Shown here: positions 17,230 through 26,233 of the stretch, piece after piece | Position numbering within the stretch: the first letter of the stretch is position 1 | How the letters are laid out: the number at the start of each line of letters is the position of its first letter | Assembly (NCBI GenBank): GCA_947165595.1 | Contig: CAMVAV010000011.1 | Location: 1-48,885, forward strand | Direction: 5' to 3' | DNA length: 48,885 nucleotides | From: an uncultured Clostridia bacterium | GTDB taxonomy: Bacteria > Bacillota > Clostridia > Oscillospirales > Oscillospiraceae | The notes under the pieces: generated by a model | What the model was told of the DNA's origin: nothing | What the model saw: the letters and a program-made list of their open reading frames with translations, nothing else | Databases searched by the model: none | Made by a program: the position numbers and the translations under genes

Positions 17230-17278
17230 AAAAAAGCCTTCATTGGGGGCACTTGTCCCCAATGAACGCCTTTGTTCA
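17230..17278 (-). promoter_or_regulatory. pyrG leader: hexaloop hairpin overlapping an intrinsic terminator
   Basis: Read on the minus strand. A 5-bp hairpin, TGAAC-AAAGGC-GTTCA (17278-17263), sits a few bases after the predicted start of transcription. Its 3' arm is shared with the terminator stem TTCATTGGGG (17266-17257) / CCCCAATGAA (17248-17239), which is followed after GGC by six T, a C and six more T. The two structures are mutually exclusive. The hexaloop has A at position 1 and G at position 4, as required in RNA targets of ANTAR proteins. Equivalent leaders precede guaA and the type III glutamine synthetase gene. Confidence 0.75.
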
Positions 17279-17287
17279 ACCATGGAG

Positions 17288-17316
17288 AGAATACTACAGG
17301 AAACGCCGGATGTCAA
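17288..17316 (-). promoter_or_regulatory. pyrG promoter
   Basis: On the minus strand, consensus TTGACA (17316-17311), a 17-base spacer and TATTCT (17293-17288). Transcription should begin within CCATGG around 17283-17280, so the RNA starts just before the hexaloop hairpin. The promoter lies directly behind the ANTAR gene stop at 17325. Confidence 0.85.
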
Positions 17317-17324
17317 CAGAAAAA

Positions 17325-17915
17325 TCAGGGCGACTGATAGGTTTTGATGATGTTCTCCGCGACCTCCCTGCGGGAAAGGCGCAGGTCCATCGCCTGCTTT
17401 TCCACATAGCGGTGCGCCTCGCCCTCCGCCATGCCGAGCCGCTCGATCAGCAGCCATTTCGCGCGGTTGACCAGGCGGATCTCCTCGATCTTTTCCTCGA
17501 CCGTCGCCTGCTTTTCCTCCATGCGCCGCAGCCGCTCCCGCGCGGCGCAGAGGATGCGCAGCGTCTGCGCCACGACCTGCGTGGAGGTGGGGACGGGCAG
17601 CACCATGACGCCCTCCTCCATCACCTTGGCGTACACGTCGTCGTAGAGCTCCTTTTTGACCAGCAGCAGCACGCCCGCGCCGGAGCTGCGGCAGATGTCC
17701 GCCGCGAGGCGGCTGCCGAACTCGTCGCGCAGGGGCGTCTGGATCAGCACGATGTCGAAATCGGTCTCCAGCAGGCGGCGGCGCGCCTCACCCGTGCTGC
17801 GCGCGGCCTCCACCGGCCAGTAGTCCGTCGGGGGGAGCAGCGTGCGGGTCGTCTCTGTGAACTTTTCCGACGCGGAGACGATCAGGACGGCGTAGGTCCG
17901 CTCCTGAAACACCAT
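17325..17915 (-). CDS. nitR: ANTAR-domain RNA-binding antiterminator (NitR-type)
   Basis: A 196-residue protein starting at ATG 17915 behind AGGAGGG. Residues 5-120 form a receiver-like domain, but the beta-3 end that should carry the phospho-accepting Asp reads DIVLIQTPL, so it is a pseudo-receiver. A coiled coil (about 120-140, [19 protein letters not shown]) leads to a C-terminal ANTAR domain (about 140-192) with [20 protein letters not shown] and [16 protein letters not shown] proteins bind RNA hairpins and prevent formation of terminators. It lies 39 bases after glnA as its operon partner; this glnA-ANTAR arrangement is known in Clostridium as glnA-nitR. Hexaloop leaders upstream of pyrG, guaA and glnN are likely targets. 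Confidence 0.88.
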
Positions 17916-17954
17916 GCGCGGCTCCCTCCTTTCCTTGAAGGCTTTCCGCCCGTC

Positions 17955-19166
17955 TCAGCGGTCGGCGTAGGCGGAGAGGATCAGCTCCGGCACGTGCGCG
18001 CGGATGAAGCCGCTGCCGCGCGCTGCGGCTGCCGCCTCGTGCAGCGAGGCGGGGATGTGGCGATAGCGGCGCAGCGTCTCCTCGTCCGCGGTGTAGAGGT
18101 TGACGTCCGCGCTCTCCGGCAGCGGCAGGCGCTTTTCAATGCCGTACAGACCGGCGCGCATCAGCAGCGCGAAGGCGAGGTACGGATTCGCCGCCGGGTC
18201 GGGGGAGCGCAGCTCGGCGCGGTACTGCTCCTGCGGCGCGGCGGGAATGCGGATGAGCTGGGAGCGGTTCTCGCTCGACCAGGTGATGTAGCCGGGCGCC
18301 TTGTTGCTGCCGAGGCGGCGGTAGGACTCCTCCAGCGGGTTGAGAAACAGCGTCAGCTCGCGCACCTTGTCCATGATGCCGGCGATGGCGAAGGGCAGAT
18401 AGTCCTGCCCGTCCTGCGCGCGGACGGAGAAGTTGATGTGCATGCCGTTGCCCGCCTCGCCCGGCAGCGGCTTGGGCGAAAAGTCGGCGGCAAGCCCGTT
18501 GCGCGCCACGATGGTCCGCACGACGGAACGGAAGGTGATGGTGTTGTCCGCCGCGGTGAGCGGGTCGGAGTAGCGGAAGTCGATCTCGTTCTGCCCCGGC
18601 CCCTCCTCGTGGTGGGCGCACTCGGGCCGGATGCCCATCTCCGAGAGGGTCAGGCAGATCTCGCGGCGGACGATCTCGCCCTTGTCCTCCGGCGCGATGT
18701 CCATGTAGTGCGCGTGGTCGCAGGGGATCTTCGTCGGCTCGCCGTTTTCGTCGGTCCGGAAGAGGTAGAATTCCATTTCCGCGCCGAAGCCGAACGAAAA
18801 GCCGGACTTCTCCGCCTCCTCCGCGGCGCGGCGCAGCAGCGCGCGGCAGTCTCCCTCGAACGGCGAGCCGTCCGGGTGGGCGACGGAGCAGAACATCCGC
18901 ACGACGCGCCCGTTTTCGGGGTGCCACGGCAGGCTCGAGAGCGTGGCGGGATCGGGGTGCAGAATGAGGTCGGAGCGCACCTCGCCGCCGAAGCCGGGGA
19001 TGGCGGAGGCGTCGAACGGGATGCCGAAGGAGAACGCGCGCTCCAGCTCGGAGGGCAGGATGGCGAGGTTTTTCTGCCGCCCGAACACGTCGCAGAACGC
19101 GAGGCGGATGAACTTCACATCCTCCTGCCGCACATACTCGATGACCTCTTGCGCCGTATAATTCAT
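17955..19166 (-). CDS. glnA: glutamine synthetase, type I family
   Basis: A 403-residue enzyme starting at ATG 19166 behind AGGGAGGG. It carries the N-terminal beta-grasp region, the metal-binding GFGAEMEFYL (about residue 125), the ATP-site NGMHINFS (about 250), APGYITWSSENRSQLIRIP (about 300) and RAELRSPDPAANPYLAFAL. It is about 40 residues shorter than typical type I enzymes. It joins ammonia to glutamate with ATP. It is the first gene of a transcript with the ANTAR regulator and is divergent from guaA. Unlike pyrG, guaA and glnN, its own leader shows no terminator, so regulator and enzyme should be made whatever the state of the antiterminator. Confidence 0.92.
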   Translation of the reverse strand: MNYTAQEVIEYVRQEDVKFIRLAFCDVFGRQKNLAILPSELERAFSFGIPFDASAIPGFGGEVRSDLILHPDPATLSSLPWHPENGRVVRMFCSVAHPDGSPFEGDCRALLRRAAEEAEKSGFSFGFGAEMEFYLFRTDENGEPTKIPCDHAHYMDIAPEDKGEIVRREICLTLSEMGIRPECAHHEEGPGQNEIDFRYSDPLTAADNTITFRSVVRTIVARNGLAADFSPKPLPGEAGNGMHINFSVRAQDGQDYLPFAIAGIMDKVRELTLFLNPLEESYRRLGSNKAPGYITWSSENRSQLIRIPAAPQEQYRAELRSPDPAANPYLAFALLMRAGLYGIEKRLPLPESADVNLYTADEETLRRYRHIPASLHEAAAAARGSGFIRAHVPELILSAYADR

Positions 19167-19205
19167 GGCCGTCCCTCCCTGAGAAAGAATCAAAAACACT
19201 GGAAA

Positions 19206-19235
19206 AGCATACAACGCGGCGCGGGCCTTTGTCAA
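19206..19235 (-). promoter_or_regulatory. glnA-nitR promoter
   Basis: On the minus strand, TTGACA (19235-19230), an 18-base spacer and TATGCT (19211-19206). The short leader to ATG 19166 contains only the ribosome-binding site and no stem-loop with a T-tract. It is back-to-back with the guaA promoter. Confidence 0.8.
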
Positions 19236-25820: not shown

Positions 25821-25835
25821 GCGGACAGACCGGAG

Positions 25836-26015
25836 ATGAACAACCGTTCCAATCTGGCGAACGCCCTTATGTGGGGCGGGGGAGGCCTTCTGTACCTCGG
25901 CGCGACCTTTCTGGTCGACGTGGGCGTCTTCCGCGTGCTCGCCTATCTGTTTCTGCTGCTGGCGTGCATGTACCTGATCCGCTATCTCAACGGCAGGCGC
26001 AGCGGGAAAAAGTGA
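25836..26015 (+). CDS. small membrane protein of the TRAP operon
   Basis: A 59-residue protein starting at ATG 25836, 15 bases after the permease stop, with CGGAG ahead. It has two hydrophobic segments, about residues 9-24 (ANALMWGGGGLLYLGA) and 27-50 (VDVGVFRVLAYLFLLLACMY), joined by a short turn, and a basic tail NGRRSGKK. The same strand, close spacing and membrane character suggest an accessory subunit of the transporter, but I do not recognise a family. Codon use matches the neighbours, which supports it being translated. Confidence 0.6.
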   Translation: MNNRSNLANALMWGGGGLLYLGATFLVDVGVFRVLAYLFLLLACMYLIRYLNGRRSGKK

Positions 26016-26021
26016 ATCACA

Positions 26022-26051
26022 GGGGGACGCGCCCGCCCGGGCGCGTCCCCC
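26022..26051 (+). terminator. strong GC hairpin after the TRAP operon
   Basis: GGGGGACGCGCCC (26022-26034) and GGGCGCGTCCCCC (26039-26051) form a 13-bp perfect stem with a four-base loop, six bases after the small membrane gene. There is no T-tract on the plus strand, so full intrinsic termination is uncertain. Confidence 0.55.
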
Positions 26052-26145
26052 CTGCGACTGTCAAAAAAAGCTGCCGCGGGGCGGCGGCGGGGACATATGA
26101 CAAAAATGAAAGCTGCTTATCAGGAAAATTGATTCATTTCGACGA

Positions 26146-26174
26146 TTGACTTTGCGCCGGGCGGGATTTATACT
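26146..26174 (+). promoter_or_regulatory. promoter of the glnN operon
   Basis: TTGACT (26146-26151), a 17-base spacer and TATACT (26169-26174). Transcription should begin near A26181, inside CCATCGAGAC, three bases before the hexaloop hairpin. Confidence 0.85.
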
Positions 26175-26183
26175 GCAACCATC

Positions 26184-26233
26184 GAGACAAGGGCGTCTCA
26201 GAGAGTTTTTGCACTCTCTGAGGCGCTTTTTTT
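26184..26233 (+). promoter_or_regulatory. glnN leader: hexaloop hairpin overlapping an intrinsic terminator
   Basis: Hairpin GAGAC-AAGGGC-GTCTC (26184-26199) has a perfect 5-bp stem and a hexaloop with A at position 1 and G at position 4. Its 3' arm forms the base of a 14-bp terminator, GCGTCTCAGAGAGT (26193-26206) with ACTCTCTGAGGCGC (26213-26226), followed by seven T. It is the best formed of the three such leaders in the window. Read-through is needed for glnN, and possibly for the six genes behind it. Confidence 0.82.

Follow-up and report, generated by a model that had tools for sequence, protein, structure and literature searches.

A single hexaloop at the 5' end of the pyrG, guaA and glnN leaders suggests a simpler form of ANTAR antitermination in Clostridia

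Why the genes for cytidine triphosphate (CTP) synthase, guanosine monophosphate (GMP) synthase and type III glutamine synthetase should stand behind one and the same leader is the question raised by a 48,885-nucleotide (nt) stretch of an uncultured Clostridia bacterium of the family Oscillospiraceae (contig CAMVAV010000011.1, assembly GCA_947165595.1; the whole stretch is referred to here as the window). Within 9 kb (17230 to 26236), pyrG, guaA and glnN share one leader design, in which a sigma-70-type promoter with a 17-nt spacer is followed, 9 nt behind the -10 box in each case, by a hairpin with a six-base loop (hexaloop) that is overlapped by an intrinsic terminator (Table 1). All three promoters and hairpins were found where a first-pass annotation had placed them, as was a NitR-type ANTAR gene between pyrG and glnA (17325-17915, minus strand). 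The leaders are very probably controlled by NitR-type ANTAR antitermination through the one 5'-terminal hexaloop, to which the protein is predicted to bind, and they may represent a pared-down version of an RNA switch already known.

In computed folds the full leaders are terminators (guaA -19.0, glnN -29.2 and pyrG -26.3 kcal/mol) that take in the loop and the 3' arm of the hexaloop hairpin, in agreement with the earlier reading of this arm as the terminator base; the hairpin alone reaches -3.7, -6.7 and -4.0 kcal/mol, respectively, and the two structures are mutually exclusive. As the terminator is the default fold and the lone hairpin is weak, read-through requires that the hairpin be stabilized in some way. 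The pairing said to be kept across differing stems is seen in pyrG and glnN, but not fully in guaA, where one mismatch in GAGAC/GTCCC leaves three contiguous pairs. A scan of 15 kb gave 8 promoter-like sites against 1.9 in shuffles and 13 terminators, a number consistent with chance (9.9 expected); it lists those of glnN and pyrG but not that of guaA, which contains mismatches. The hairpin pattern with up to three mismatches is also at chance level in the window alone (4 against 2.8 expected), and significance therefore rests on context and relatives. In the bacterium's own genome this loose pattern gave 30 matches against 21 for the reversed pattern, the layout being seen by eye in the guaA and glnN leaders only, and a covariance model found only the three window sites as strong matches; a fourth, weaker match (expectation value, E, 0.0019) is devoid of a hexaloop stem and lies upstream of an open reading frame that resembles infC by eye. 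No Rfam family reached its gathering score in the window, and nothing relevant was found at E<=1 over 17100-26400.

Relatives of the leaders were collected with covariance models built from 4 leaders (R1), 41 sites (R2) and 118 sites (R3). Matches to R1 were present in 27 of 200 genomes of the family and matches to R2 in 91 of the 200 at E<=0.01; at E<=0.001, R3 matched in 137/295 genomes of the order and 78/291 of the class, the class sample including matches in 33 families. Judged from these sequences, the element appears to be present before nitrogen genes over much of a bacterial class. An exact-pattern scan of named genomes gave four matches, in Planctomycetota, Melioribacter, Ignavibacteria and one Clostridia record (L035), of which only the last was used; this uncultured relative has pyrG, nitR, glnA and glnN in the order of the window with no guaA between them, and hexaloop leaders at pyrG and glnN. 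The alignment underlying R3 and the pair counts (A5) omits seven of 87 sources in which the hairpin was out of register (L108, L112, L114, L140, L146, L152 and L154) and has seven others added, and the 173 sites counted below derive from the 176 rows of A5 and a further alignment, A6, minus duplicates and one over-long match.

As the models hold no gene information, the coherence of the genes downstream of their matches is independent evidence. In the family, 102 of 121 unique sites have, in the next 1.1 kb, a match to one of nine reference genes, two of which (amt and the glutaminase domain) were drawn from the matched loci themselves: glnN at 44 sites, a glutamate-synthase-type glutaminase domain at 23, pyrG at 13, amt at 8, glnA at 7, asnB at 4, guaA at 2, and a single site matched to the purA reference whose first gene is purC. 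The 19 sites without a reference match include carA, glutamate dehydrogenase and an NfnA/GltD-like subunit. The 58 top sites of the order precede the glutaminase-domain gene (27), glnN (26) and glnA (1), with 4 lacking a reference match, and class loci add gdhA, asnA, asnB, carA, amt and purC, named by eye from translations. The first-pass annotation had asked whether such leaders head glutamine-dependent enzymes, and in the family and order the element does stand before glutamine and nitrogen genes.

Other surroundings were seen at a few loci. No long gene lies close behind the element in L235 (1501-1720), L236, L237, L245, L247 and L251; a similar stretch follows it in L235 and L245, strongly folded in L235 (z -6.2) and there matching no Rfam family above its cut-off, and this could be a small RNA that is controlled in the same way. 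Leaders also lie upstream of a protein of about 312 amino acids (L149 269-1204, L143 and L160), which in L149 has no Pfam or NCBIfam match, and of a circularly permuted ATP-grasp protein (L132 252-1208). In L061 (1501-1551, minus strand) a hairpin that may or may not be related, TGTAC[AAAGAA]GTACA, and a sequence resembling a terminator lie some 270 nt upstream of an ATP-binding cassette transporter ATPase gene.

That the element acts at the RNA level, as had been proposed, is supported by strong covariation. In A5, a model-fitted and curated alignment, 97.7% of stem cells are paired compared to 75.8% in shuffles, and the covariation score of 0.730 (0.310 in shuffles) was reached in 0 of 500 shuffles; sliding the partner strand by 1-3 columns lowers pairing to 27-54%. 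Two of the five measures gave a less clear picture, as pairs changed on both sides are at shuffle level (3 against 3.0) and further pair types number 13 against 10.5. The stems vary widely, with GAGAC/GTCTC, AATGAGC/GTTCATT, AAAGGC/GTCTTT, ACAGC/GCTGT and GTAAAC/GTTTAC all represented. Position and dyad symmetry would also fit a DNA operator, an inverted repeat just behind the promoter to which a repressor binds; however, the arm sequences vary with pairing kept, conservation lies in the non-palindromic centre and not in the arms, and the 3' arm of the hairpin falls within the terminator stem at 127/173 sites (13-22 in shuffles), so that an operator is barely credible. A U-tract is present at 146 of the 173 sites, compared to 44-55 in shuffles.

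The loop is conserved in a selective manner. Over the 173 model sites position 1 is A in 165, G in 7 and T in 1, position 4 is G in 169 and A in 4, and C-G closes the loop in 168; position 3 is varied (A107 G24 T22 C20). These counts are biased, as the seeds of R1 all carried A1 and G4, and a model-free check was therefore made, looking for a promoter with a hairpin behind it in the DNA upstream of 30 glnN loci. These were the best matches by protein similarity, the sole criterion of choice, among the 87 of 110 searched genomes in which a match was found. With any loop of 3-9 bases allowed, a hairpin with U-tract was found in 23 of the 30, and in 17 of these the longest stem enclosed a six-base loop; restricting the loop to six bases and relaxing the promoter raised the count to 26. 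All 26 have G at position 4, a purine at position 1 (A 23, G 3) and a C-G closing pair, and position 3 is again mixed (A6 C7 G7 T6). A at position 1, in most leaders, and G at position 4 agree with the marks of ANTAR targets named in the first-pass annotation. Since most of the 146 U-tract leaders have paired loop bases in their computed folds, it could be argued that loop conservation only mirrors the terminator, the loop also pairing with its 3' strand. Position 3 indeed covaries with its terminator-strand partner and accepts any base (A-T 86, C-G 17, G-C 9, T-A 7), whereas little variation is seen at positions 1 and 4 or in the closing pair, and G is retained at position 4 though the partner is T in 34 of the 146. 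Loop conservation is therefore not just terminator pairing, and an explanation by the terminator alone is highly improbable.

Table 1. Features of the window discussed in the text
Feature	Position	Strand	Detail
pyrG	15595..17193	-	CTP synthase (glutamine amidotransferase); Pfam CTP_synth_N 5e-124
pyrG leader terminator	17232..17266	-	built on the 3' arm and loop of the hairpin
pyrG hairpin	17278-17263	-	TGAAC[AAAGGC]GTTCA; leader 17263..17316; R2 match 48.2 bits
pyrG promoter	17316-17288	-	TTGACA-17-TATTCT
nitR-like gene	17325..17915	-	pseudo-receiver and ANTAR domain, 196 aa; PF03861 E 1e-15
glnA-like gene	17955..19166	-	divergent type I glutamine synthetase; apparent operon with nitR
guaA promoter	19277-19305	+	TTGACA-17-TATAAT; 12/12 consensus matches
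guaA hairpin	19315-19330	+	GAGAC[AAAGAC]GTCCC; whole leader 19277..19330
guaA leader terminator	19322..19369	+	overlaps hexaloop
guaA	19407..20945	+	GMP synthase (glutamine amidotransferase)
glnN promoter	26146-26174	+	TTGACT-17-TATACT
glnN hairpin	26184-26199	+	GAGAC[AAGGGC]GTCTC; whole leader 26146..26199
glnN leader terminator	26189..26236	+	overlaps hexaloop
glnN	26265..28361	+	type III glutamine synthetase; Pfam GSIII_N 4e-79
2483-aa open reading frame	35927-43378	-	C-terminal part resembles surface-layer-homology repeats (by eye); probably a large surface protein

Antitermination targets of ANTAR proteins, as described in the literature consulted, have two hexaloops, and in the eut system these lie 5-12 nt apart and are both needed for antitermination (PMC3369931, PMC8934654). 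The leaders might then be ordinary dual-hexaloop targets whose first hairpin was overlooked, and 38 of the 173 sites do possess a second consensus hexaloop 43-105 nt downstream (49 were flagged, of which 7 within pyrG coding sequence and 4 lacking the consensus were removed by eye). However, another C[AnnGnn]G hexaloop is present within 20 nt at 1 of 173 sites (1-3 in shuffles) and the looser [AG]nnGnn form with a 4-bp stem at 9 (8-15 in shuffles), none of the three window leaders has a tandem module, and the -10 box lies just 9 nt from the hairpin; an overlooked partner is thus very unlikely, and the single hexaloop first noticed in the window stands. The 38 sites with a downstream hexaloop lead into glnN (34), glnA (1) or no matched gene (3), and those second hexaloops that were inspected possess a terminator of their own. 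The second hexaloop, the DNA operator and terminator-only loop conservation were rejected on shuffle counts, arm variation and G4 constancy, respectively. Tandem hexaloop-terminator modules before glnN, gdhA and glnA were observed in L177 (9572 and 9649) and L179 (14876/14814, 15028/15140 and 874/800).

In comparing the element to a classical ANTAR-target RNA, the A1/G4 hexaloop with C-G closing pair and the terminator overlap are found and the tandem hexaloops are not; departing in one defining feature and agreeing in the others examined, the element is a variant that would work in a like manner. The nearest published account, within the portions of literature available, is the discussion in PMC8934654, in which the EutV-RNA structure leads to a redefinition of the minimal ANTAR site as one hexaloop, exceptions outside antitermination are named (a single hexaloop in EutX, and stem-loops of M. 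tuberculosis that are not always dual), and bioinformatic work on the extent of single-hexaloop use is called for. The literature search found no description of single-hexaloop antitermination leaders, although the supplementary tables of PMC3369931 may already list such leaders.

As to what reads the hairpin, the loop and closing-pair rule of the element coincides with the consensus from systematic evolution of ligands by exponential enrichment (SELEX) with NasR, a C:G closing pair and a hexaloop with A1 and G4 (PMC7496416). The ANTAR domain of NitR scores 57.4 bits against a curated cut-off of 27.3, and nitR is the sole ANTAR match in its own genome assembly, which is 78% complete. NitR matches the sequences of the solved structures Rv1626 (2.7e-10), AmiR (2.6e-5) and EutV (0.003), and a fold search with a medium-confidence AlphaFold 2 model made from 2 sequences (mean predicted local distance difference test score 76.7) returned chains of Rv1626, EutV and AmiR as its top six, with whole-chain TM-scores of just 0.44-0.51. 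When NitR is aligned by eye to the RNA-contact residues of EutV (numbering from PMC8934654), six of eleven are kept or conservatively replaced (K143-R147, K147-R151, K149-K153, E160-E164, M172-M176 and R175-R179). Element and ANTAR genes also occur together, with p values that ignore shared ancestry: at E<=0.001 in the family, 59/68 element genomes have an ANTAR gene compared to 65/132 others (p 1e-7; 72/91 compared to 52/109 at E<=0.01), in the order 124/137 compared to 44/158 (p 1e-29) and in the class 71/78 compared to 74/213 (p 5e-19). Four of the 30 glnN loci lack a leader, two with an ANTAR gene and two without.

Several observations weigh against control by NitR through one hexaloop. 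The EutV contacts R142, Y164, R168, N173 and R177 are changed in NitR (to I146, H168, E172, D177 and S181, by eye), and Tyr164, which stacks on G4, is His in NitR as it is in AmiR. The association with ANTAR genes ignores phylogeny in all three samples and has exceptions: no ANTAR gene was detected in 13/137 order and 7/78 class genomes with the element, one of these (G461) being rated 100% complete, and the four inspected of the thirteen have good leaders, two at purA (L255 and L256) and two at glnN; 44 order and 74 class genomes have an ANTAR gene and no element. In published work, EutV depends in vivo on the presence of both hexaloops (PMC3369931, PMC8934654), the affinity of NasR for one hairpin is about 12-fold lower than for two (PMC7496416), and PMC8934654 expects single-hexaloop sites where no time limit is set by a transcribing polymerase, a condition from which terminator leaders differ. 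The genomes without a detected ANTAR gene and the neglect of phylogeny would also suit another RNA-binding protein or a small ligand as the reader, the co-occurrence then reflecting shared ancestry. However, this would leave the agreement with the NasR consensus to coincidence, the association holds outside the window's own order (63/70 class genomes with the element compared to 71/209 without), and a 16-nt hairpin is, in our judgement, small for a ligand aptamer and matches no Rfam family; a different reader is therefore unlikely, and NitR remains the preferred one.

The input to NitR may be sought in its neighbor. At the end of strand 3 (IVLIQ, residues 55-59) the receiver has Gln59 in place of the phospho-acceptor Asp, as does the NitR of L035, and a protein or ligand input is therefore likelier than phosphorylation. 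The first candidate would be the GlnA-like protein of the apparent nitR operon. In Gram-positive bacteria a glutamine-bound synthetase controls GlnR, with involvement of the E flap and its Glu (PMC9249791). In the window GlnA this Glu is replaced by Lys and about 13 residues of a loop are missing, while the metal and phosphate motifs checked are kept. Across 19 loci of this divergent type in 16 genomes (the window, L035, L050, L072-L089 and L174-L179) the flap residue is Lys in 17, Arg in 1 and Ser in 1; the GlnA of L082 retains the Glu and appears intermediate, and the canonical GlnA of the family keeps it at 19 loci in 11 genomes. The divergent Lys-flap GlnA is a possible glutamine sensor or an altered enzyme, and the loss of the flap Glu may merely alter activity. 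No hexaloop leader was seen by eye behind the promoter of the glnA-nitR operon (19235-19206) in the window. Among eight upstream regions of canonical glnA loci beside other ANTAR proteins, a single-hexaloop leader was seen by eye in five (G020, G182, G014, G078 and G151), four of which carry G at loop position 1, and the remaining three show none.

In the mechanism proposed, for which we infer the start site, the binding by NitR, the sign of the response and the signal, transcription would begin 6-7 nt after the -10 box, so that the hexaloop hairpin would emerge from RNA polymerase ahead of any other structure. Without aid, the hairpin would lose its loop and 3' arm to the downstream strand, the terminator would form and the gene would be off. 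Under a shortage of nitrogen (glutamine), active NitR would recognize the closing C-G pair, the purine at position 1 and G4 of the single hexaloop, and on binding would hold the weak hairpin until polymerase has passed the U-tract, allowing expression of pyrG, guaA and glnN. The sign of control is carried over from NitR of Clostridium saccharobutylicum, which antiterminates the glutamine synthetase/glutamate synthase (GS/GOGAT) genes under nitrogen limitation (PMC6316151, citing Stutz 2007).

The interpretation given in the first-pass annotation is supported, as neither its refuting condition on covariation nor that on association with ANTAR genes in related genomes came about. ANTAR antitermination of nitrogen genes is of an already known kind; what appears to be new, in the literature searched, is the single 5'-terminal hexaloop in terminator leaders across much of a class, and its extension to CTP and GMP synthesis. 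A more far-reaching reading, in which the single 5'-terminal hexaloop is a complete class-wide ANTAR element, the glutamine regulon reaches CTP, GMP, carbamoyl-phosphate and asparagine synthesis, and a glutamine-sensing GlnA-like protein without the E-flap Glu, rather than phosphorylation, switches NitR, is tentative and, taken as a whole, rather doubtful. Natural terminator leaders that apparently work with one hexaloop make the role of the first hairpin directly testable, and ANTAR control would be widened from nitrogen assimilation to glutamine-dependent nucleotide synthesis. For annotation of nitrogen control in the class, a short motif is offered: C[RnnGnn]G, located in most cases 6-10 nt downstream of the -10 box and overlapped by a terminator.

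Among known systems, the eut leaders and EutV of Enterococcus faecalis resemble the window leaders in having an A1/G4 hexaloop that excludes an intrinsic terminator and in their link to an ANTAR protein, but rely on two hexaloops and a phosphorylated receiver, where the window has one hexaloop at the 5' end and a receiver without the phospho-acceptor Asp. The nasF leader of Klebsiella shares the C:G closing pair, A1, G4, terminator read-through and the link to nitrogen genes; however, full affinity requires two hairpins, and NasR carries a NIT sensor domain. NitR of C. saccharobutylicum is likewise an ANTAR protein tied to ammonium assimilation through GS/GOGAT antitermination, a comparison that covers the protein and its GS/GOGAT targets, with pyrG, guaA and the other targets going unnamed in the text of PMC6316151 consulted. 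EutX, with its single hexaloop, and the mycobacterial stem-loops are also non-dual ANTAR sites according to the available text of PMC8934654, although EutX is a sequestering small RNA and the mycobacterial sites lie at ribosome-binding sites or 5' untranslated regions, whereas those of the window are terminator leaders. AmiR, close to NitR by sequence and fold search, combines a pseudo-receiver with an ANTAR domain and has AmiC as its partner, a place that a glutamine-synthetase-like protein would take for NitR. Finally, GlnR resembles NitR in that a glutamine synthetase is encoded beside the regulator (PMC9249791), but GlnR and TnrA bind DNA and work with the feedback-inhibited synthetase, whereas the family of NitR binds RNA and the E-flap Glu is missing from the GlnA of its operon.

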